Of a stretch of DNA of 37,866 nt, positions 7,497-19,120 are shown one piece after another. Source of the DNA: Desulfarculaceae bacterium (lineage in GTDB: Bacteria > Desulfobacterota > Desulfarculia > Desulfarculales > Desulfarculaceae); the NCBI GenBank assembly GCA_027067385.1, contig JAMOVV010000099.1:1-37866 (forward strand), read 5' to 3'. A program made the position numbers and the translations under genes. The notes under the pieces are model-generated. The model was not told the DNA's origin. It saw only the letters and a program-made list of their open reading frames with translations, and made no database searches. Every line of letters starts with the position of its first letter. Positions within the stretch are counted from its first letter, which is position 1.

Positions 7497-9130
7497 GGGG
7501 GCGGGTTCACAAAGGCCATTTCCTGCAGGCGCTGGGTGAGGGCCGGCAGGGTGGCGGGGTCCCGGGCGCTGATGGCCACGGCGTCCATCCGGCGCGCCAG
7601 GCTCTCCACCACCTGGGGGTCGGCCAGGTCTATTTTATTCAGGACCAGCAGGCGCGGGATCCGGTCCAATTCCAAGTCGGATAAAATTTTTTCCACCGAG
7701 ACGATCTGCTGCCGTAGCTGGGGGTGGCTGGCGTCGGCCACGTGCAGTAGCAGGTCGGCCTGCTTGAGCTCCTCCAGGGTAGCGGCAAAGGCGCGGCGCA
7801 GGTCCCGGGGCAGGTCCCGGATGAAGCCCACGGTGTCGGTGATGATCACCTGGCGCTCGCGGGGAAAGCGCAACCGGCGGCTGGTGGGGTCCAGGGTGGC
7901 GAAGAGCCGGTCTTCGACCCGCACCTGGCTCCGGGTCAGGGCGTTGAGCAGGGTCGACTTGCCGGCGTTGGTGTAGCCCACGATGGAGAGCATGGGCAGT
8001 CCCAGTTGGCGGCGGCGGCGGGAGCGGCGGCGGCGCTGGTCGGTGATCCTGGCCAGCTCGGCCTCCAGGCGGTGCAGGCGCTGGCGCACCCGGCGGCGGT
8101 CGATCTCCAGCTTGGTCTCGCCGGGACCGCGCCCCCCGATGCCGCCGGTGAGCCGGCTCAGGCCGTCGTCGCGGCTGGTGAGCCGGGGGGCCAGGTAGCG
8201 CAGTTGGGCCATTTCCACCTGGAGCTTGCCTTCGCGGGTGGCGGCGCGCTGGGCGAAGATGTCCAGGATGAGCTGGGTGCGGTCGATGAACTTCAACCGG
8301 GTCTCGGTGGCCAGGGCCAGGGAGTGGGCCTGGGCCGGGGTCAGCTCCTGGTCGAAGACCAGCACCCCGGCGCCCCGGCGCAGGGCCTGCAGGAGTACCT
8401 CGCCCAGCTTGCCGGCGCCCATGAGGGTGCGGGGGTCGGGCCGGGAGCGGCGCTGGATGACCCGGCCCACCACCCGCAGCCCGGCCGAGGCGGCCAGGGC
8501 GGCCAACTCGTCCAGGGAGTCCTCGGCCTGGTGGCGGGGCCGGGCCGATACGCTGATGAGCAGGGCGCGGCCCTGTTGTTGCACCAGGCGCGAGGCGCTT
8601 AGCCGGGCCAGCTCGTCTTCCAGGGAGCCCACCAGCTCGGCCAGGTCCAGGGGCGGCCGCCCGGCGGTAAAGGGCTCCAGGAGCCGCAGGTCTTGGCCCT
8701 GCACCGGCTGGGGCAGCAGGTGGGCCACGTGCAGCTCGCCGGCTTGTCCCTGGGGCGACACCTGCAAGACGGCCATGAGGTCCCAGCGGCGCAGGGCCAG
8801 CTCGGCCAGGTCGTCGCGGCCCAGGCCGCCGGCCAGGTGGGTGTGGAGAAAGCTGTAGCCGGCCAGGCGGGTGGCGCCGCGGCGCAGGCGGCCCAGGTCG
8901 GGGTAGGCCAGGCGCTCGGGCCCGCCCACCACCACCGTCTCCATCCGGCCGCGCCGCGAGACCACCAGGCCCACCTGGCGGCCCAGTTCAAAGGAGAGCC
9001 GGGCCAGGTCGCGGGCCTGCCGGCCGTGCAACAGCTCGGCCGGGGGCAGTCGCCGGCGATAGAGGTTGGCCAGCCGTTTGAGCTGGTTGGCCTTGAGGCC
9101 CTGGGTGAAACCGATTACCTTGCGGGCTAT
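7475..9130 (-). CDS. hflX: Ribosome-associated GTPase HflX
   Basis: HflX binds the ribosome and splits stalled 70S particles under stress. The C-terminal GTPase domain shows G1 GYTNAGKST, G3 DTVGF and G4 NKID. Before it are the HflX domain with LMGAGKLGE and an Arg-rich linker, then GGIGGRGPGETKLE. The shortest conventional frame begins with TTG at 9031, but homologous sequence continues upstream in frame (KVIGFTQGLKANQLKRL, then LYRRRLPP), matching the usual HflX N-terminus. An in-frame stop bounds it and no ATG, GTG or TTG exists there. I place the start at ATA 9130-9128, with GGAGA six bases upstream and 15 bp after the dnaB stop. The protein would be 551 residues. The gene is certain; the start codon is not. 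Confidence 0.9.
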   Translation of the reverse strand: MARKVIGFTQGLKANQLKRLANLYRRRLPPAELLHGRQARDLARLSFELGRQVGLVVSRRGRMETVVVGGPERLAYPDLGRLRRGATRLAGYSFLHTHLAGGLGRDDLAELALRRWDLMAVLQVSPQGQAGELHVAHLLPQPVQGQDLRLLEPFTAGRPPLDLAELVGSLEDELARLSASRLVQQQGRALLISVSARPRHQAEDSLDELAALAASAGLRVVGRVIQRRSRPDPRTLMGAGKLGEVLLQALRRGAGVLVFDQELTPAQAHSLALATETRLKFIDRTQLILDIFAQRAATREGKLQVEMAQLRYLAPRLTSRDDGLSRLTGGIGGRGPGETKLEIDRRRVRQRLHRLEAELARITDQRRRRSRRRRQLGLPMLSIVGYTNAGKSTLLNALTRSQVRVEDRLFATLDPTSRRLRFPRERQVIITDTVGFIRDLPRDLRRAFAATLEELKQADLLLHVADASHPQLRQQIVSVEKILSDLELDRIPRLLVLNKIDLADPQVVESLARRMDAVAISARDPATLPALTQRLQEMAFVNPPPGPGAFG

Positions 9131-10654: not shown

Positions 10655-11283
10655 TAGTCCTGGTCGTCGGACTCCGGCTCGGCGGCCTCGTCCTCGGCGG
10701 CCGGTTCTTCGGTGTCCTCGGCGGCCTCTGCGGCGTCGTCGTCGTCGGCGGCGGTCTCGTCGATGGCCTCCTCGCCGGCCTCTTCGGCTTCCGCCGCCGC
10801 GGCGGCCTCGGCGGCCGCCTTGGCCAACTGCTCTTCGTCCAACTGGGCCTCCACGGTCACCGCGATCTGCACCACCACCTGGGGATGCAGCTTGATATCC
10901 ACCTGGTACTCGCCGAGCTGCTTGATGGGGGTCTCCAGCAGGATGCGGCGGCGGTCGATATCGTGACCCATTTCGGCCAGGGCGGCGGCCAGGTCCATGT
11001 TGGTGATGGAGCCGTAGAGCTTGCCGGTCTCGCCGGCGCGGGCGGCCACGGTTACCTGCACGCCCTCGAGCTGGGCGGCCTCGCCGCGCACCCGCTCGGC
11101 CTCGGAGGCCTGGGCTGCGGCGATGCGCTTGCGTTCGGCCTCCAGGGCGGCCACGTTCTTATCCGAGGCCAGCATGGCGATACCCTGGGGAAGAAGGTAG
11201 TTGCGGCCGTAGCCGTCCTTGACCTCCACCACGTCGCCGGGATCGCCGAGCCCCAGCACTTCCTGGGTGAGGATTACCTGCAT
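10654..11283 (-). CDS. rplI: Large-subunit ribosomal protein L9, acidic tail
   Basis: L9 binds 23S rRNA at the base of the L1 stalk and helps keep the reading frame. Residues 1-50 are the N-terminal domain (MQVILTQEVLGLGDPGDVV, then YGRNYLLPQGIA). A long helix and the C-terminal domain run to about residue 148 and include GKLYGSIT. Beyond it is a tail of about 60 residues made almost only of Ala, Glu, Asp, Thr and Pro. The total of 209 compares with about 148 for typical L9. The tail is in frame and compositionally like the one on S6 in the same operon, so it is probably real. Last gene of the rpsF operon. Confidence 0.96.
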   Translation of the reverse strand: MQVILTQEVLGLGDPGDVVEVKDGYGRNYLLPQGIAMLASDKNVAALEAERKRIAAAQASEAERVRGEAAQLEGVQVTVAARAGETGKLYGSITNMDLAAALAEMGHDIDRRRILLETPIKQLGEYQVDIKLHPQVVVQIAVTVEAQLDEEQLAKAAAEAAAAAEAEEAGEEAIDETAADDDDAAEAAEDTEEPAAEDEAAEPESDDQD

Positions 11284-11301
11284 TGGTGTGTCCTCCTCTT
11301 G

Positions 11302-12288
11302 TCAGGCGGCGGCGTTGGCCTTGAGCCGCCTGAAGTCAAACCACATGTCAAACAGTCCCGCCGCCACCAACAGGAGCAAAACCAACTCCATCAACACCAC
11401 CGCGGTGTAGATGGCCGCACGCGCGGGACGGGGTATTTTCTTTTTTTGCAGCCAAAAGGCCAGCACCGCGATCCCCTGCAACAGGTAGACCGCACTGGTG
11501 GCGATGAGCAGGTTGGCTCCCAACCAGAAGAGCCAGCCCCGGGTGGCCACCACCAACACCACCGCAACGATGAAGAACCAGACCAGGACCTCCGGGGCCC
11601 GCCACAGTGTCAGCGACCTGGCCGGCTCCGGGGGCGGCTGGTTGATCCGGCTGGCCACCAGGTTGGCCCAAACCAACAGCAGGCTGGCGGCGGCCAGGAT
11701 GCCCGGGGTGAGCTTGATCAGGCCTCGCAGCACCCCTCCCAGCATCTTCACGGTGGCGGCGTCCATGCCGCTGTCGCGGTAAACCGCCAGCAGGGCGTTG
11801 ATCTCCGGGTCCACCTGGGACCGTACGAACTCGCCGAGACCCTGGCCGCTGAGCGGACCCAGGACCATGGCGATGCCCCCCAGGACCACCAGGGCGGCGG
11901 CCAGGGCGGCGGCCAGGGCGGTCTCTTCACTCCAGCCCCGGGCCAGGACCTCGCCCACCGCGGCGGCCACCACGGCGTAGTAGAAAAAATTCATGCCGCC
12001 GCCGGGCAGGGGCAATAGGGTGCTGCTGAGCACCCAGGCCGCCACCAGGGCCACCAGGGTCGCGGCCCTGCCCTGGGCCGCGCCGCCGCGCCGGTAGGCC
12101 CACATCAAGGGGGCGGGCGCGAAGATCACGCTGAAGGTGGTGAGGGTGACCATCACCACGGTCCAGAGCATCGAGCCCCCGCCGCTGCCCTCCAGGGCCG
12201 GGATGAAAAACAACAGCAGGCTCACCCCGGCCCCTAAGGCGGAGACGCCTCCCCAGCTAATCACCGGACCGGCGGCGGTGTCGCCCAT
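11302..12288 (-). CDS. DUF2232 (YybS-like) integral membrane protein
   Basis: The 328-residue inner-membrane protein has about eight to nine hydrophobic segments spread over the whole length and a short Lys/Arg-rich motif (KKKIPRPAR) before the last one. Position between rpsR and rplI is the hallmark of DUF2232 proteins in deltaproteobacteria and related groups. The biochemical role is unknown; the general fold suggests a membrane component of uncertain substrate. Its closest recognisable neighbours are the ribosomal genes, with a 15-bp gap after rpsR and an 18-bp gap before rplI, so it is co-transcribed with them. Confidence 0.8.
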   Translation of the reverse strand: MGDTAAGPVISWGGVSALGAGVSLLLFFIPALEGSGGGSMLWTVVMVTLTTFSVIFAPAPLMWAYRRGGAAQGRAATLVALVAAWVLSSTLLPLPGGGMNFFYYAVVAAAVGEVLARGWSEETALAAALAAALVVLGGIAMVLGPLSGQGLGEFVRSQVDPEINALLAVYRDSGMDAATVKMLGGVLRGLIKLTPGILAAASLLLVWANLVASRINQPPPEPARSLTLWRAPEVLVWFFIVAVVLVVATRGWLFWLGANLLIATSAVYLLQGIAVLAFWLQKKKIPRPARAAIYTAVVLMELVLLLLVAAGLFDMWFDFRRLKANAAA

Positions 12289-12303
12289 GGGCGACGTCTT
12301 CGG

Positions 12304-12537
12304 CTACTGGCTGGCCGCAAAGGGCAGCAGAGCGATGGCCCGCGCCCTTTTGATGGCCAGGGTGAGCTCCCGCTGATGGCGCGCGCAACAACCGCTGATG
12401 CGCCGGGGAATTATCTTGCCGCGTTCGGTGGTGAAGTAGCGCAGGGTGCGGGGGTCCTTGTAGTCGATTTTCAGGGTGCTGTCGGCGCAGAAGCGGCAGA
12501 CCTTGCGGCGGCCGTAACGCCTTTTCCGAAATGCCAT
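12304..12537 (-). CDS. rpsR: Small-subunit ribosomal protein S18, Zn-ribbon form
   Basis: S18 forms a heterodimer with S6 on the platform of the 30S subunit. The 77-residue sequence contains the conserved core [20 protein letters not shown] and [19 protein letters not shown] pair near residues 15-18 plus the CC at about 50-51 mark the zinc-binding (C+) form of S18. It starts with ATG 9 bp after the rpsF stop. Length is normal. Confidence 0.98.
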
Positions 12538-12546
12538 GGCTACCTC

Positions 12547-13029
12547 CTACTCCTGCTCCGTGGGTTGGTCCTCAGTCGGTTTCTCGTCGCCGGCGGACTC
12601 GGGCTCGGGCTTGGCCTCGGGCTCGGCCGGTGCTTCCTCGGCGGCCTCGGGCTCGGCGGCGGCCGGGGTTTCCTTGGCCGCCTCGGTCTCCTCGGCCGGC
12701 TCCTCGGGCTCGGGCTCGGGAATCAGGGCCTCGGCGTCGAACTCCTCATCCAATAGCACCGTGAGGTAGCGGATGACGCGCTCGTCGATCTTGAAGTTGC
12801 GCTCCATCTCGGCCACGGCCGCCGGGGTGGCGCCGTAGTCAAAGAGCACGTAGTAGCCCTTGTGGAACTTCTTTACTTCATAGGCCAGGCGCCGACGACC
12901 CCAGTCCTCGACCTTGACCATGGTCCCACCGCCGTCTTCGATGATGGCGCGGAACTTGTCCACCACCGCCGCGATGTCCTCATCGGGCAGCTCTGGACTA
13001 ATAATATAGATGGTTTCGTAATGCCTCAT
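12547..13029 (-). CDS. rpsF: Small-subunit ribosomal protein S6, acidic tail
   Basis: S6 pairs with S18 on the 30S platform. Residues 1-100 are the normal fold: MRHYETIYIISPELPDED, then GRRRLAYEVKKFHKGYYVLFDY and ERVIRYLTVLLD. Residues about 101-160 form a low-complexity tail of Glu, Pro and Ala. In E. coli the S6 tail is extended with glutamates after translation by RimK; here a long acidic tail is genetically encoded. ATG 13029 has GAGGAG upstream. First gene of the operon, preceded by a hairpin leader and a strong promoter. Confidence 0.97.
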   Translation of the reverse strand: MRHYETIYIISPELPDEDIAAVVDKFRAIIEDGGGTMVKVEDWGRRRLAYEVKKFHKGYYVLFDYGATPAAVAEMERNFKIDERVIRYLTVLLDEEFDAEALIPEPEPEEPAEETEAAKETPAAAEPEAAEEAPAEPEAKPEPESAGDEKPTEDQPTEQE

Positions 13030-13051
13030 ATGATCTCCTCATGGCCTTACG

Positions 13052-13072
13052 TCTCCGGCCCTATGCCGGAGA
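13052..13072 (-). promoter_or_regulatory. Hairpin in the rpsF leader, candidate S6:S18 site
   Basis: TCTCCGGC and GCCGGAGA form a perfect 8-bp stem with a 5-nt loop in the 5' leader, about 20 bp before the rpsF start. Many bacteria carry a leader structure bound by the S6:S18 dimer with a conserved CCG element. A CCGG-containing hairpin at this place fits, but the detailed motif cannot be confirmed by eye. Confidence 0.45.
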
Positions 13073-13095
13073 AAGGAGTTGTACTGGAAGTTGCT

Positions 13096-13124
13096 TTGAT
13101 ACCACCGGCTTGGGCGATTGTCAA
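13096..13124 (-). promoter_or_regulatory. Promoter of the rpsF operon
   Basis: On the minus strand TTGACA (13124-13119) and TATCAA (13101-13096) are exactly 17 bp apart. The -35 box overlaps the last codons of the upstream Nudix gene. Transcription would begin about 60 bp before rpsF, giving a leader that includes the hairpin at 13052-13072. Confidence 0.75.
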
Positions 13125-13546
13125 GCCGTGGGCGGGTGTTTGGGGCCGCCGGCCGGATCGGCGGCTTGTAACAGGGCGCGGTCGGCCGGGGCCAGGGTGA
13201 TGCCGTCCAGGTCCTGGGGCGACACCCAGGCCAGCTCACGGTGCTCCAGGGCCCGCGGGGTGCCCTGGAGCAGGCGGCAGTTAAAGGCCCGCAGGCGCAG
13301 GCGCTGTCCCTGGTGCGGCTGCCGCACCTGGCCGTGGAGCCCCTCCACCGCCACCCTGACGCCCAGTTCCTCGGCGATCTCGCGGGCCAGGGCGGCCGCC
13401 GGGGACTCGCCCGGCTCGATCTTGCCGCCGGGCAGCTCCCACAACCCGTTGTCAGCCCGCCGGGCCAAGAGCAGGCGGCCGTTTTGCCGGATCAAGGCGC
13501 AGACCACCTCCAGGGTGGTAGCGGGCTGGGCCGGGCGGACGCTCAA
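13121..13546 (-). CDS. Nudix hydrolase, MutT-like
   Basis: The 141-residue protein carries a complete Nudix box, GGKIEPGESPAAALAREI then AEELGV, at about residues 40-63, with the glutamates that bind the catalytic metal (REIAEE). The N-terminal EVVCALIRQNGRLLLARRADNGLWELPGG and the C-terminal HRELAWVSPQDL match the MutT/8-oxo-dGTP-diphosphatase subgroup. It likely removes oxidised nucleotides, but other nucleotide substrates are possible. TTG start at 13546 overlaps the TGA of the TPR gene (TTGA), indicating translational coupling. It is the last gene of the aminotransferase operon. Confidence 0.88.
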   Translation of the reverse strand: MSVRPAQPATTLEVVCALIRQNGRLLLARRADNGLWELPGGKIEPGESPAAALAREIAEELGVRVAVEGLHGQVRQPHQGQRLRLRAFNCRLLQGTPRALEHRELAWVSPQDLDGITLAPADRALLQAADPAGGPKHPPTA

Positions 13547-15372
13547 GGGGTCTTCTCGTTTTCCCGGGAGCCGGCCAGGCCCGAGGTCCTGAGCCGCAGG
13601 TAGCGCTCCTGGACCTTTTCGTCGCCCGGGGCCAAGTCCAGGATGCGCCCCAGGGTCTCCAGGGCCTGGTCTCGCTGCCCCTGGCTCTCCTGGATAAGGG
13701 CCAGGCTGCGCAACATCTCCAGGTTGTGGGGGGCCTGCTTTAGGCCGCGTTGCAGCAGCTCGGCGGCCTGGGAGGGCTGGTCCTGGGCCAAGGCCAGGGC
13801 GGCGCGCAGTTGGTAGAGCTTCACCGCCTTGGGATGGTCCTCAAGGGCTCGGTCCAGCAGTTCGGCCATGACCTGGGGGCGGTGTTCCGACAAAACGGGG
13901 TAGGCCCGGTTAATGGGTGACAGGTCTTTGGGGTCGTCCTGGTAGAGCTTTTTGATCACCGCCACCGCCTCCTGCCAGCGGCCCAGGCGCGAGAGGGCGT
14001 CAAACAACAGCAGCCTGGTTTCGCGGTCCTTGGGCTTGTGCTCGGCGGCGGCCTGGAGATAGTTCAGGGCGGCGGCCGGTTGATCGGCCTCCAGCAGCAG
14101 CACCCCCAGGTTGAAGCTCAACTCGGGATTGTCAGGCTTGAGCGCGGCCAGGCGGCGGTAGACCCGGCTCAGCTCCCGGCGGTGGCCCAGCTCCTGGTAG
14201 AGGTTGGCCAGGCGCAGGAGCACGGTGTAGTCTTCCGGCCCCAGGTCGGCGGCCCGGGCCAGGTGTTGGGCCGCCTTGGCCTGGTCGCCGGCGGCCAGGT
14301 AGGCGTCTGACAGCGCCAGTTGCAGGGAGCGGTCGGCGGGCTTTTGGGCTGCCGCCTTGACCAGGGCCCGCAAGGCCCCGGCGCGGTCGCCGGCGGCGGC
14401 CCGGGCCTGGGCCAGGGCCTTCCACAGCTCGATGTCCCAGGGACGGGCCTTGGCCGCCGCCTCCAGGACCAGACGGGATTGCTCGCCCTGGCCGGCCTTG
14501 GCCAGGGCCCGGCTGAGGCGCAACAGCACCGCGGTGTGCTGCCCCGGGGGCAGGGACCGCCGCAGCCGCTCCCACAGGCGGGCGGCGGCCGACCAGCGTT
14601 TGAGCTCCTCGTTGAGCCGGGCCAGGCGCTCGATGAGCACCACGTCCTTGGGGCGCTCGGCCACCAGCTTGCTCAGCGCCGCCACGGTGCGTTCTTTTTG
14701 CCCCAGCTTTTCATAGAGCTCGGCCAGCCGGGTGAGCAGGTGGGGGTCGTCTCCCTGGCGGGCGGCGTCCTCCAGCAGATCGGCGGCCCGGCGGTACTGC
14801 TTGGCCTGGGTGAGCAGGTCCACCAGGCGCAGGAGCAACAAGCGGTCGTCGGGGCTCTGGCGCAGGGCCCTTTGGGTGAAACGGATCTTGTCGGTGAGCG
14901 ACTTGCAGGCCTCGGCCTTGCGCAGGTAGTCGATGGGCAGCCAGTGGGGCACCAGGGTTATGGTCCCCAGGACGCGGTCGTTTTTGCGGGCCTGGATCAC
15001 CAGCTCCTTGACGTCCCAGACCTTGTCGCCCAGTAGCTGGCTGAGGCTGTGATAGCGGCTCAGGTCCACCTCCGGCCGGATGGCCAGCCGCAGGCGGATG
15101 CTGGAGCCGAGCCACTGGTCGCTGTGGACCTTGAGCACTCGAAAGGGTGTGTCGGGGTGGATGGCCAGGACCCCGCCCGGCTTGACGTTGACCTTCACCC
15201 CGCCCACGGCCAAATCCACCGATCGGAAACCCGCCCCGGCCCAGGCCGGCGGGCAGGGCCAGAGGGCCGCGGCCAACCACCAGGCCAAAACAATGGCCAG
15301 GGCCGCCGCCCACCGCGCTGGTCGATTTAAACGCCGTTTCATCAACCGCCGCCCCGTACTGGAGTCGTTCAT
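13543..15372 (-). CDS. Exported TPR-repeat protein
   Basis: This 609-residue protein has an N-terminal signal or anchor (Arg-rich start, hydrophobic AALAIVLAWWLAAALW, then AWAGAG). Next comes a short beta-rich domain of about 115 residues, then roughly a dozen tetratricopeptide repeats from about residue 165 to the end. Repeats of the form LYEKLGQKERTVAALSKLV and LYQELGHRRELSRVYRRLA are clear. TPR arrays bind other proteins, so it probably scaffolds an envelope complex. The ATG at 15372 has only a weak GGGTA; ATG 15342 (MKRRLNRPAR) is an equally good start and gives a more typical signal sequence. It lies 41 bp after mtaB and overlaps the Nudix gene. Function unknown. Confidence 0.82.
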   Translation of the reverse strand: MNDSSTGRRLMKRRLNRPARWAAALAIVLAWWLAAALWPCPPAWAGAGFRSVDLAVGGVKVNVKPGGVLAIHPDTPFRVLKVHSDQWLGSSIRLRLAIRPEVDLSRYHSLSQLLGDKVWDVKELVIQARKNDRVLGTITLVPHWLPIDYLRKAEACKSLTDKIRFTQRALRQSPDDRLLLLRLVDLLTQAKQYRRAADLLEDAARQGDDPHLLTRLAELYEKLGQKERTVAALSKLVAERPKDVVLIERLARLNEELKRWSAAARLWERLRRSLPPGQHTAVLLRLSRALAKAGQGEQSRLVLEAAAKARPWDIELWKALAQARAAAGDRAGALRALVKAAAQKPADRSLQLALSDAYLAAGDQAKAAQHLARAADLGPEDYTVLLRLANLYQELGHRRELSRVYRRLAALKPDNPELSFNLGVLLLEADQPAAALNYLQAAAEHKPKDRETRLLLFDALSRLGRWQEAVAVIKKLYQDDPKDLSPINRAYPVLSEHRPQVMAELLDRALEDHPKAVKLYQLRAALALAQDQPSQAAELLQRGLKQAPHNLEMLRSLALIQESQGQRDQALETLGRILDLAPGDEKVQERYLRLRTSGLAGSRENEKTP

Positions 15373-15413
15373 AAGATACCCAGCAGACGGCCGGTAGTCA
15401 AAGGTACTTACAA

Positions 15414-16718
15414 CTACGGCAGATTACGAGTCAAAAGCCGGGGGGGCTCGGCCTCCCGGTCCACCGCGCGGGCCTCCACCACCAGGCGCTGGCCGGGCCG
15501 GGCCGGTTGGTCCAGTTGGACCAGGCAGTAGTTTTGGCTGCGGCCCAGGCCGCGGCGCTCCACCACCACCTCCAGGCGGCGGCCCACCTGGGATTCGAGA
15601 AAGCGGCGGTGCTTGGCCGCGCCCAATTGGCGCAGGACCGCCGCGCGCTCCCGGGCCACCCGCGGGGGCGGATGCCCCATGGCGGCGGCCGGGGTGCCGG
15701 GGCGGGGGGAGTAGGGGAAGACGTGCAGGTAGGCCAAGTCCAGGGACTCGATGAGTCCCCGGGTCTGCTCAAAGGCCTCCTGGTCCTCGCCGGGCAGGCC
15801 CACCAGCACGTCGGCCCCCACGCACAGGCCGGGGATGCGGCCCAGGGCCCGGTTAACCGTGGCGGCGTATTGCGCGGCGCTGTAGGGCCGGCCCATGGCC
15901 GCCAGCACCTGGTCGCTGCCCGATTGCAAGGGGATGTGCAGGTGGGGGCAGAGGCGCTCCCGGCCGGCCATGAGCTCCAGCAGGTCGTCGCCCACCTCGT
16001 TCATCTCCAGTGACGACAGGCGCAGCCGGGGTCCCGGCCCCATGGCCAGCAGGCCACGGAGCAGGTCGGCCAGGTCGCAGGGCGGGTCCAGGTCGCGGCC
16101 GTAGAGCCCCAGGTGGATGCCGGTGATCACCACCTCGGCCGCCCCGGCCCGGGCCATCCGGGCCAGGGACTGCTGGGCGCTGTCTACCGGGAGGCTGCGC
16201 GGCCGGCCGCGGGTGTAGGGCACCACGCAGTAGGCGCAAAAGGCGTCGCAGCCGTCTTGCACCTTGAGCTGGCTGCGCGCCCGCTCGGCCGAGGGCGGAC
16301 GCTGACCCGGGCAAAAGGGTCCGGCGTCGGGCGCGGCGTTGGCCGGCTCTGGCAGTGGCCGGCCGCGGGTGAGCCGGGCGGGCAGCTCGGCCAGCCAGGC
16401 CCGGCCGGCCAGTTCATAGCCCTGGCCCTGGTAGGTCTCGGGCGCGGCCTGCAGGTCGCAGCCGGTCACCACCACCCGGGCCCCGGGGTGAGCCTTGGCC
16501 AGGCGGCGGGCCATCTGGCGCGACTGCCGCGCCGCCGGGCCGGTGACCGAGCAGGTGAGCAGAATCACCAACTCGGCCGGCTGCCCGGCCGCCGCCGCCC
16601 GCCACCCCAGCCGGGTCAGCTCCAGCTCCAGCCAGGCGGCCTCGGCCTGGTTGACCTTGCAGCCCAACGAGCGGACCTGGTAGCTCCCGGGCCGGCCGCC
16701 GCGGTTAGAAGCGCTCAC
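15414..16718 (-). CDS. mtaB: MiaB-like tRNA methylthiotransferase (MtaB family)
   Basis: This radical SAM enzyme adds a methylthio group to t6A37 of tRNA. The UPF0004 N-terminal domain begins YQVRSLGCKVNQAEAAWLE, with further cluster cysteines in LLTCSVTG and VVTGCD. The radical SAM motif CDAFCAYC (Cx3Cx2C) follows, then VVPYTRGR and a C-terminal TRAM-like domain. SLGCKVNQAE and the t6A-type motif CAYCVVPYTRGRPRS favour MtaB (e-MtaB/YqeV) over MiaB or RimO. The open frame extends far upstream into the aminotransferase, so I choose GTG 16718-16716 as the start. This gives 434 residues, the family's usual length, and a 14-bp overlap with the aminotransferase. MiaB-type activity on i6A37 remains possible. 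Confidence 0.88.
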   Translation of the reverse strand: MSASNRGGRPGSYQVRSLGCKVNQAEAAWLELELTRLGWRAAAAGQPAELVILLTCSVTGPAARQSRQMARRLAKAHPGARVVVTGCDLQAAPETYQGQGYELAGRAWLAELPARLTRGRPLPEPANAAPDAGPFCPGQRPPSAERARSQLKVQDGCDAFCAYCVVPYTRGRPRSLPVDSAQQSLARMARAGAAEVVITGIHLGLYGRDLDPPCDLADLLRGLLAMGPGPRLRLSSLEMNEVGDDLLELMAGRERLCPHLHIPLQSGSDQVLAAMGRPYSAAQYAATVNRALGRIPGLCVGADVLVGLPGEDQEAFEQTRGLIESLDLAYLHVFPYSPRPGTPAAAMGHPPPRVARERAAVLRQLGAAKHRRFLESQVGRRLEVVVERRGLGRSQNYCLVQLDQPARPGQRLVVEARAVDREAEPPRLLTRNLP

Positions 16719-17883
16719 GTACCCGCTTGAAGGCCCCGGCCGAGCGCTCGATGGTGGCGTCGTCGCAGCAGAAGGCCACCCGGAAGTGCCCCGGGCCGAT
16801 GAATCCGCTGCCCGGCACCAGGAGCAGATTTTCCTCCTGGGCCGCCCGCACAAAGGCCACGTCGTCTTCGATGGGGCTCTTGGGGAACACGTAGAAGGCG
16901 CCCTTGGGCTTGACAAATTCAAAGCCGGCCTCCTCCAGCACCTGGCAGATGGCCTGGCGCTTGGCCGCGTAGAGGCTCACGTCGGAGGTGTGGCCCAACA
17001 GCTCGGCCACCACCCGCTGCATCAGGGCCGGGGCGTTGACATAGCCCAGGATGCGGTTGGCCAGGGTCATGCCGGCCACCAGGTGCGGCTTGTCTTCTAT
17101 CTCGGGATGCACCACCACGTAGCCGATGCGCTCGCCGGGCAGGGAGATGTTCTTGGAAAACGAGGTGGCCAGGATGGAGTGCTGGTAGGCGGCCAAGAGG
17201 CTGGGCACCTCCAGGCCGTCAAAGACGATGTCGCGGTAGGGCTCGTCGCAGATGAGGTATATGGCCCGCCCCAGGCGCTCACCGGCCTGGGTGAGCCCCT
17301 GGCCCAGTTGGTCCAGTTCCTCGGCGCTGTAGAGCGCGCCGGTGGGGTTGTTGGGCGAGTTGATGAGCACCGCCACCGTCTGCGGGCCGATGGCCTCCAG
17401 CACCGCGTCCACGTCCAGGCCGAAGTCGTCGCGGGTGGGCACCCGGGTCACCTTGCCCCCGTGGTTGTCCAGGTAGAAATCGTACTCCACGAAATAGGGG
17501 GTGGGCACTATCACCTCAGAGCCGGGGTTGACGATGGCCTTGAGTACGATGTTCAGGGCCCCGGCCGCGCCCACGGTCATGATGGTTTCCTGCTCGGTCA
17601 CCTCCACCCCCTGCACGCTCGATACGTGGGCGGCCACCTTTTGTCGTACCGCCGGGTAGCCGGCGTTGGGCATGTAGGCGTGGCTGCCCGGGGTGCGGTC
17701 GCCGGCGATGCGGCTGATAACCTCGTAGAAGTGCTCGGGGGGCTCCAGGTTGGGGTTGCCCAGGGAGAAGTCGTAGACGTTCTCCGCCCCCAACTCGGCT
17801 TTCATCTTGGTCCCCGCCTCGAACATGGCGCGAATCCAAGAAGATCGTTCGATAAAAGAAGCTATTTTTTCAGAAACCGGCAT
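16705..17883 (-). CDS. PLP-dependent class I/II aminotransferase
   Basis: The 392-residue fold-type I aminotransferase has NSPNNPTG near 175-182, DEPY at 213-216 and the PLP-binding lysine in SFSKNISLPGERIGY (K244). The arginine R252 contacts the cofactor phosphate, and HFRVAF near the C-terminus holds the arginine that grips the substrate carboxylate. Automatic annotation would call it aspartate aminotransferase. The leader peptide just upstream is rich in tyrosine and phenylalanine codons, so an aromatic substrate (tyrosine or phenylalanine to arylpyruvate, or the reverse) is a reasonable inference. AGGGAGG precedes the ATG. First gene of an operon with mtaB, the TPR gene and the Nudix gene. 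Confidence 0.93.
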   Translation of the reverse strand: MPVSEKIASFIERSSWIRAMFEAGTKMKAELGAENVYDFSLGNPNLEPPEHFYEVISRIAGDRTPGSHAYMPNAGYPAVRQKVAAHVSSVQGVEVTEQETIMTVGAAGALNIVLKAIVNPGSEVIVPTPYFVEYDFYLDNHGGKVTRVPTRDDFGLDVDAVLEAIGPQTVAVLINSPNNPTGALYSAEELDQLGQGLTQAGERLGRAIYLICDEPYRDIVFDGLEVPSLLAAYQHSILATSFSKNISLPGERIGYVVVHPEIEDKPHLVAGMTLANRILGYVNAPALMQRVVAELLGHTSDVSLYAAKRQAICQVLEEAGFEFVKPKGAFYVFPKSPIEDDVAFVRAAQEENLLLVPGSGFIGPGHFRVAFCCDDATIERSAGAFKRVRERF

Positions 17884-17908
17884 GCGGAACCTCCCTTGGC
17901 TGTGGCCG

Positions 17909-17942
17909 AAAAAAACCGCGGACTGTGTTGGCCAGTCCGCGG
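17909..17942 (-). terminator. Attenuator-type terminator before the aminotransferase
   Basis: On the minus strand CCGCGGACT pairs perfectly with AGTCCGCGG across a 9-nt loop (GGCCAACAC) and is followed by TTTTTTT. It ends 25 bp before the aminotransferase start, leaving room only for its ribosome-binding site, and begins 27 bp after the leader-peptide stop. That placement is expected of a transcription attenuator. GTTGGCC in the last leader codons can pair with GGCCAAC in this loop, a possible alternative fold. Confidence 0.8.
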
Positions 17943-17969
17943 TCGATGGTTACCTGGTTGGGTTGGGGA

Positions 17970-18041
17970 TCAGGGCCAACGAACGCACCGGCGCTGGTAA
18001 TAAAAATAATACCGGCTAAATCGTCCGTTTGAGCTGATCAT
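17970..18041 (-). CDS. Tyr/Phe-rich leader peptide (predicted)
   Basis: This is a 23-codon open frame, ATG at 18041-18039 and TGA at 17972-17970, too short for routine gene calling. Residues 8-15 read FSRYYFYY, so five consecutive codons are Tyr, Tyr, Phe, Tyr, Tyr, and Trp is at residue 22. It lies between a candidate promoter and a U-tailed hairpin upstream of an aminotransferase. This is the layout of amino-acid-controlled leader peptides such as those of the pheA and trp operons. A ribosome stalled at the tyrosine codons for lack of charged tRNA would change folding of the RNA ahead and let transcription continue. The ribosome-binding site (GGGA, 11 bases upstream) is weak. Confidence 0.7.
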   Translation of the reverse strand: MISSNGRFSRYYFYYQRRCVRWP

Positions 18042-18075
18042 TACTACATCAATCCCGTTGCTTAACTTATTGTTC

Positions 18076-18104
18076 ACGCTAACACCGGGCGCGGAAACGG
18101 TCAA
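18076..18104 (-). promoter_or_regulatory. Promoter of the leader and aminotransferase operon
   Basis: On the minus strand TTGACC (18104-18099) and TAGCGT (18081-18076) are 17 bp apart. Transcription would start near 18069, about 28 nt before the leader ATG, and the leader RNA to the end of the U-run would be about 160 nt, typical for an attenuator. Confidence 0.55.
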
Positions 18105-18134
18105 GGGGAAAGCTACCCCCGTCCCCGGCGGCGG

Positions 18135-18425
18135 CTACTCGTGCACCACCGGGGGTTGCAGCTCCTTGAAGGAGAAGTTGTAAAACACGTTGTGCCCGTT
18201 GTAGTCCAGCACCCGGATGTCGTCCTCGCGGTCCACGTCGGCCACGATGGCGTCAAACTGCTTGCCGTAGCGCTGCCGCACGGTTTCCACCGGCAATTCA
18301 TAGGCCATGTATTTCATGATTCCCTTGCGGGCCAGCTTTTCAATGAAAGCGGGGTCCTCAAACGACTTGTAGGTGGTCAGTACCAGTATCGGTCCGGTTC
18401 CGGTGAAGATGATACCTACTTTCAT
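18135..18425 (-). CDS. Conserved small protein of unknown function
   Basis: This 96-residue soluble protein has no signal peptide or membrane segment. It opens MKVGIIFTGTGPILVLTTYKS, a beta-strand followed by a glycine-rich turn, and contains YMAYELPVETVRQRYG, then DREDDIRVLDYNGHNVFYNFSF. I recall similar short proteins in anaerobic deltaproteobacteria but know no function. The start ATG at 18425 is chosen because GGGAG lies seven bases upstream; an in-frame ATG at 18455 would add ten residues without support. It ends 31 bp before the promoter of the leader-aminotransferase operon. Glycines near the N-terminus could bind a nucleotide or phosphate, but no known motif is met. Confidence 0.75.
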   Translation of the reverse strand: MKVGIIFTGTGPILVLTTYKSFEDPAFIEKLARKGIMKYMAYELPVETVRQRYGKQFDAIVADVDREDDIRVLDYNGHNVFYNFSFKELQPPVVHE

Positions 18426-18520
18426 ACCGCGTCTCCCGCATGATAATGGGACCAAAAGTAATTAAGCCAGCATGCATTGTCGGCTCGGCCGGTGTCAATG
18501 GCCTATCGGTATGCGGCCGT

Positions 18521-19120
18521 TTACATGGTCAGCTCTTTGAGCTTGGCTATATCGAGGGCCTGGAAGAGCTGCTTGGCCAGCTCGGCCGCGCCGGCCACCC
18601 CGCGCACCTTGATCTGCACCAGCACCTTGGAGCCCACCACCGCCTGCAGTTCGGCGCGCTGGTCAGAGCGGGACTTGAGGATGGCCTTGTGGCCGGCCAG
18701 CCGGATGAGCTTGCCGTTGCGCCCGCTTTGCAGGAACATGGGGTTGCTCATCATCATGGCCATTGATTGCAACAGGGGCGAGTCGGTCATCACTTGAATT
18801 TCGGCGCTGCCGCCGCCGGCCTTGCGATAAACCTGGGTGGCGGTCACCGCCCCGAGCATGGCCGCCCCGCTGGACTCGGAGGTGGGCTTGCCGGCAGTAA
18901 AACCTTCCGGAGCCTTGGGGAAGACGGCGGCCAGGCTCTCGGCCTTTTTCTGCCGGAGCTGGGCCGAGGCGAAGTTCAGCTCCTCCAGGGCGGCGCTGAT
19001 TTTGCCGTCTTCGTATAGTTTCAGGGCCTGCTTGATCTGGTCGGCGATCTCATCGGCCAGGGCCGCCGCCGGCATAACCAGCAGGCTAAGGACGATTGCC
19101 AGTATCCCCAATTTTTTCAT
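18521..19120 (-). CDS. Exported protein of unknown function
   Basis: This 199-residue protein has a clear signal peptide (about 1-22, MKKLGILAIVLSLLVMPAAA with cleavage near ALA). A TPR-like helical pair follows, including IKQALKLYEDGKISAALEELNFASAQ. Then comes a beta-rich domain with an odd Met-rich stretch (SMAMMMSNPMF) and a closing segment with repeated VLVQIKV and GVAGAAELAKQLFQALD. I do not recognise a named family. AAAGGGGGA precedes the ATG. It is transcribed away from the YkgJ-type gene and probably resides in the periplasm. The Met-rich stretch could bind copper, but there is no other evidence for that. Confidence 0.75.
   Translation of the reverse strand: MKKLGILAIVLSLLVMPAAALADEIADQIKQALKLYEDGKISAALEELNFASAQLRQKKAESLAAVFPKAPEGFTAGKPTSESSGAAMLGAVTATQVYRKAGGGSAEIQVMTDSPLLQSMAMMMSNPMFLQSGRNGKLIRLAGHKAILKSRSDQRAELQAVVGSKVLVQIKVRGVAGAAELAKQLFQALDIAKLKELTM

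Follow-up and report, generated by a model that had tools for sequence, protein, structure and literature searches.

A probable leader-peptide attenuator with a tyrosine codon run upstream of an aminotransferase gene in Desulfarculaceae

Ribosome-mediated attenuators are a textbook mechanism, represented by trpL, pheL and pheM. In the E. coli pheL/pheA and pheM/pheST systems, a leader with aromatic codons is combined with alternative 2:3 and 3:4 helices and an intrinsic terminator. Tyrosine control in E. coli acts via TyrR. In a comparative survey of 2005, tyrosine is listed as T-box-regulated and phenylalanine as attenuator-regulated (PMC1262725). The aroR leader of C. glutamicum, which precedes aroF (DAHP synthase), contains Phe-Tyr-Phe codons and works by ribosome-mediated attenuation that responds to Phe and not to Tyr; attenuation of pheA and pheST is cited in the same paper (PMC11802643). 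Another report gives the uORFC-13-1 motif, found in Acholeplasma upstream of aroF, as a candidate uORF in which Phe codon(s) precede an intrinsic terminator (PMC8632094). Keyword searches in a 2010 survey of premature terminators and a 2021 survey of ncRNAs in 26 genomes returned neither a tyrosine leader nor an aminotransferase target. A tyrosine-sensing leader-peptide attenuator was not found in the literature searched, whose coverage is partial, and an earlier mention is possible. The mechanism is known, and a leader with a Tyr run on an aminotransferase gene in Desulfobacterota appears to be new.

We analysed a stretch of 37,866 nucleotides (called the window) from a bacterium of the Desulfarculaceae, a family of sulfate reducers; in it, an earlier note had read a Tyr/Phe attenuator in front of an aminotransferase operon. 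The features are collected in Table 1. We consider it very likely that the region upstream of the aminotransferase gene encodes a trpL/pheL-type transcription attenuator, operated by the ribosome and responding mainly to tyrosine, that would feed the last step of Tyr/Phe synthesis.

Table 1. Positions of the leader elements and neighbouring genes in the window.
Feature	Position	Strand	Evidence
Promoter: -35 TTGACC (18104-18099), 17-nt spacer, extended -10 TGTTAGCGT	18076..18104	-	Sequence read directly
Leader peptide ORF, 23 codons and stop, MISSNGRFSRYYFYYQRRCVRWP	17970..18041	-	Matching in-frame ORF upstream of 15 of the family's 17 orthologues
Regulatory codons 11-15, TAT TAT TTT TAT TAC (YYFYY)	17997..18011	-	
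Segment 1 (limits approximate); pairs with segment 2 without a ribosome	18021..18040	-	Folding; cross-species pairing test
Segment 2 (limits approximate): last leader codons, antiterminator 5' arm	17974..17993	-	Folding; covariation
Segment 3: 5' arm of the terminator, 3' arm of the antiterminator	17933..17944	-	
Segment 4: terminator 3' arm	17914..17925	-	RNAalifold covariation
Terminator T run, seven Ts	17909..17915	-	Sequence read directly
Shine-Dalgarno region of aminotransferase, AAGGGAGG	17890..17897	-	Sequence read directly
PLP aminotransferase class I/II, NF005305 (PRK06836) family, regulated gene	16705..17883	-	564 bits, cut-off 376
MtaB-like radical SAM methylthiotransferase	15414..16715	-	TIGR00089 above cut-off; TIGR01579 318.7 bits, cut-off 357
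TPR-repeat protein, possible third operon gene	13543..15372	-	Gene order conserved
Nudix hydrolase, possible fourth operon gene	13121..13546	-	Overlaps TPR stop

The promoter claimed in the earlier note was confirmed by direct reading. Its extended -10 element reads TGT-TAGCGT, with the hexamer at 18081-18076, and TTGACC and TGnTAnnnT can be seen in the corresponding position in each of the 15 leader-bearing relatives; it was not listed by a consensus scan because its -10 is weak. The 23-residue leader with YYFYY was found as described. The hairpin ACCGCGGACTG-GCCAACA-CAGTCCGCGGT (17943-17915) lies 26 nt after the leader stop codon, where a gap of 27 nt had been given, and the seven Ts stood, while the supposed perfect 9-bp stem turned out to contain 11 Watson-Crick pairs, or 12 counting one G-U. 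It is the strongest terminator-like site in a scan of the interval 11200-18600 and, as claimed, stands just before the aminotransferase ribosome-binding site, with GGGAGG about 12 nt past the T run and the ATG at 17883. When compared to shuffled sequences, the leader RNA fold has a z of -2.5, and none of 3000 shuffled versions of the intergenic region contained a short ORF in which 6 of 8 residues are Tyr or Phe.

A simpler account would be that the hairpin is the ordinary intrinsic terminator of the upstream gene and the ORF a product of chance, leaving the aminotransferase unregulated. A small conserved gene does lie immediately upstream (18425-18138), so that a terminator there would be unremarkable, and the Shine-Dalgarno sequence of the window leader is weak (GGGA, poorly spaced), while a clear GGAG or GGAGG is present in nearly all relatives. 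However, the conserved promoter sits between this gene and the hairpin, locus L016 keeps the element although the small gene is absent, and the leader frame, the aromatic run, the rare codons and the copy in segment 2 are all conserved and covarying, as described below. We therefore give this account almost no chance.

The closest aminotransferase orthologues lie in 19 genomes of the same family. The orthologue is present in 17 genomes of the family, the window's own included. The leader is present in 15 of these 17, while the downstream protein is merely 66-72% identical. The consensus of the leaders is M...RFxxYYY (R-F-x-x-[YF]-Y-Y), in which R-F before the aromatic run is nearly invariant and most remaining residues vary. 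Read in the other two frames, the leaders show stops or have fewer aromatic residues. TAT, TTT and CGA are rare codons in the downstream aminotransferase genes and, by comparison with these, strongly over-used in the leaders (Fisher p 2e-15, 9e-8 and 5e-8, respectively); for example, Tyr is encoded by TAT in 40 of 47 cases in the leaders and in 63 of 260 in the aminotransferase genes. At the sequence level, a conserved in-frame ORF with rare regulatory codons and an intrinsic terminator before the first gene, both expected of a leader-peptide attenuator, are found here. The exceptions are few: G002 has the promoter and the terminator without the leader peptide, G005 has neither peptide nor terminator, the T tract is degraded in L009 and L011, and the L013 leader contains only two Tyr codons. 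The earlier note had asked whether relatives keep the aromatic codons and the hairpin while the rest varies; this is what we found, with only G002 and G005 among the 17 lacking one or both.

The codon counts also bear on the amino acid that is sensed, which the earlier note had left as Tyr/Phe. The 15 leaders contain 47 Tyr and 28 Phe codons, and the conserved run is YYY or YYYY in most of them; therefore Tyr appears to be the likelier signal. The same attenuator might instead respond to phenylalanine, or to both, more than to tyrosine, given the 28 Phe codons and the precedent of C. glutamicum aroR, whose Phe-Tyr-Phe leader follows Phe (PMC11802643). We regard this as unlikely, though not negligibly so, since the conserved Phe stands apart, ahead of the run.

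The near invariance of R-F, which goes beyond the need of regulatory codons alone, could also point to RFxxYYY as an arrest peptide whose nascent chain, as in the TnaC and Erm leaders, responds to a small molecule inside the ribosome tunnel and not to tRNA charging. Yet the invariance extends at the nucleotide level, as [CG]GATTTA is kept in 14 of the 15 leaders and runs into the first base of the next codon, whose residue is variable (S, I, M, T, N); a cause at the RNA level, such as 1:2 pairing or pausing, is thus likely. Moreover, the run itself varies (YYFYY, FLYY, FYYC, YYC), and sister leaders in the same genome change their residues along with the pathway (F/Y at aroF2, W at trp). An arrest peptide is for these reasons very improbable, and we continue with sensing of tRNA charging.

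For such an attenuator, mutually exclusive structures are expected in the leader RNA, and they were found upon folding, as the earlier note had suggested checking. Within the last leader codons lies a segment similar to the 3' arm of the terminator; in L016, GGGUUCGCGG occurs at both places. Since segment 2 resembles segment 4, segment 3 can pair with either, and the 2:3 and 3:4 helices are mutually exclusive. When a ribosome is placed on the aromatic codons and the RNA is folded only as far as segment 3, the 2:3 helix is in the lowest-energy fold in 11 of the 15 sequences, the exceptions being L009, L012, L013 and L022. In the window, a ribosome halted at any of codons 9-13 allows 2:3 to form, and one halted further on does not; the 2:3 helix is weaker here than in most relatives. 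With the ribosome at the stop codon or absent, the terminator forms in almost all sequences, L022 excepted. Folded at full length, the RNA still has the terminator as its most stable structure when a ribosome is stalled on it, so that the switch has to be a kinetic one, like that of trp.

The pairings are also supported by covariation. In a permutation test that does not fully remove the effect of relatedness, pairing energies of native segments were better than those of segments swapped between species for 3:4 (p < 5e-5), 2:3 (p = 5e-5) and 1:2 (p = 0.0007), and the same test on ten representatives gave < 5e-5, 0.0004 and 0.011, respectively. For the control pairs 2:4, 1:3 and 1:4, native pairing was no better than cross-species pairing. 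RNAalifold reports double-sided changes in 6 of the 11 consensus pairs of the terminator. In L015 and L016 the same position is changed jointly in segments 2, 3 and 4, and the substitutions in L016 match. The 2:3 helix is thus a predicted antiterminator: it excludes the terminator, appears in 11 of the 15 models with a stalled ribosome and covaries between species. Together with the aromatic codons and the hairpin kept in relatives, these exclusive structures support the reading of amino-acid-controlled attenuation.

We propose the following mechanism. Transcription would start about 7 nt after 18076, and a ribosome would translate the 23-codon leader close behind the RNA polymerase. A shortage of charged tRNA-Tyr, and perhaps of charged tRNA-Phe, would stall the ribosome in the aromatic run and leave segment 2 free to pair with the emerging segment 3; segment 4 would then have no partner, and the polymerase would read into the aminotransferase gene and probably mtaB too. 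When tyrosine is plentiful, the ribosome would reach the stop codon and cover segment 2, the 3:4 hairpin would form, and transcription would end in the T run at 17909. If no ribosome is present, 1:2 would form and the terminator would win again. Of this, the parts, their conservation, the exclusive pairings and the covariation are seen in the sequences, and the transcript ends and the tyrosine signal are inferred.

The extent of the regulated transcript is less certain. The mtaB-like gene overlaps the stop of the aminotransferase gene, and such gene overlaps suggest that the two are probably co-transcribed. The order aminotransferase, mtaB-like, TPR is kept in the family even where the leader is missing. 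For the gene set of the earlier note, the spacing makes the mtaB, TPR and Nudix genes possible members of the attenuated transcript, but a promoter-like site lies ahead of the TPR gene (15401-15373). On the same strand after the Nudix gene are rpsF- and rpsR-like genes (S6 and S18, 12304-13029), and transcription under the attenuator might therefore extend into genes for ribosomal proteins. We also considered whether the mtaB-like gene could be MiaB, which would give a link to tRNA-Tyr/Phe modification, and rejected this, the best MiaB score being 205 bits compared to 319 for MtaB.

Beyond the family, the element was not recovered. A covariance model of the leader, searched against 63 genomes of the class, gave no match below E 1e-16 except the 15 loci already known; among the less significant matches in the same family were generic GC-rich terminators and other leader-peptide attenuators. 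The pattern GATTTA-N5-Tyr-Tyr-Tyr gave known family loci and chance matches only in 395 genomes of the phylum; the six most promising matches outside the known loci were inspected and none was an attenuator. Among 110 aminotransferase loci, Treponema included, no convincing aromatic-rich leader was found upstream of the gene outside the family. Rfam, including T-box, gave no match at the gathering level, and the sole hit, NsiR1, was at chance level.

Within the lineage, by contrast with chance ORFs or a nascent-chain sensor, attenuation predicts that the residue run should match the pathway block, and this is what is seen each time. In the window's genome, contig C194 carries an aromatic supraoperon, trpE-trpG-aroF1-aroA-aroE-aroK/aroB-aroC-(aroQ)-aroF2-pheA-tyrA-trpD-trpC-trpF-trpB-trpA, in which trpD and the aroF2 family were confirmed by NCBIfam and the others were assigned from translations. 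A Phe/Tyr leader, YFYFGFYYF, with its own terminator precedes aroF2, the second DAHP synthase gene, of aroF2-pheA-tyrA (L212, G000:C194, ~7558-7730), and is conserved at 16 of the family's 18 aroF2-type loci, G002 and G005 included. Two tandem Trp leaders (RNWWWP and KLWWWWP), each with a terminator, precede trpD of trpDCFBA (L212, 10751-11077); of 16 trpD loci in the family, 13 have Trp leaders, either tandem or single, and the tandem form is seen in several other genomes of the family. Trp leaders (WWWLW, WWRW) were also found before a TrpB-like gene (TIGR01415/NF009057) in two genomes (L147, L153), which supports a tryptophan role for that enzyme. In one genus, an RFSYYF/RFSFFF leader with a terminator precedes a metallo-hydrolase-like gene (L144 ~540-724, L145 ~490-686), and in L144 it also precedes an oligopeptide-type ABC permease, perhaps for uptake of aromatic peptides. 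The motif CGATTTA (~18023-18017 in the window), almost invariant in the aminotransferase leaders, is present in the L144 and L145 leaders too; its constancy exceeds what the peptide or 1:2 pairing explains, and it is possibly a pause signal.

These leaders bear on the substrate of the aminotransferase. No aminotransferase was seen in the C194 supraoperon, which makes the attenuated gene a natural candidate for the final Tyr/Phe transamination, presumably of 4-hydroxyphenylpyruvate and phenylpyruvate. Other class I aminotransferases are present in the window's genome, the closest solved structure is 3ele, an unnamed aminotransferase, and NF005305 carries no assigned substrate. The hint of the earlier note that the enzyme acts on aromatic amino acids is strengthened, short of proof, by the Phe/Tyr and Trp leaders that this genome carries ahead of genes for aromatic biosynthesis. 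With somewhat better than even confidence, we suggest a lineage-wide set in Desulfarculaceae in which a tyrosine-specific attenuator acts on the aminotransferase, while Phe/Tyr leaders tune aroF2-pheA-tyrA and Trp leaders, tandem ones included, tune trpDCFBA separately. The results would extend leader-peptide attenuation to Desulfobacterota, where in a single family it would organise the greater part of the aromatic pathway, and they suggest a testable substrate for PRK06836, a widespread aminotransferase family without an assigned one.

When compared to known systems, the window leader shares its anatomy with pheL and pheM, but these are Phe-rich and Phe-specific, target pheA and pheST, and belong to Gammaproteobacteria. 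Anatomy and logic are also common to the trpL attenuators, both of E. coli and those found here before trpD and trpB-like genes, which differ in their Trp codons and trp genes. The tyrosine T-box riboswitches of Firmicutes likewise sense tRNA-Tyr charging for aromatic genes, but there the tRNA binds the RNA directly and no peptide is translated. The uORFC-13-1 motif (PMC8632094) concerns another gene in another phylum and has no Tyr run. The aroR leader is, like the window leader, a short peptide with aromatic codons, but it precedes a DAHP synthase gene in an unrelated phylum, and its closer functional match is the aroF2 leader of Desulfarculaceae.
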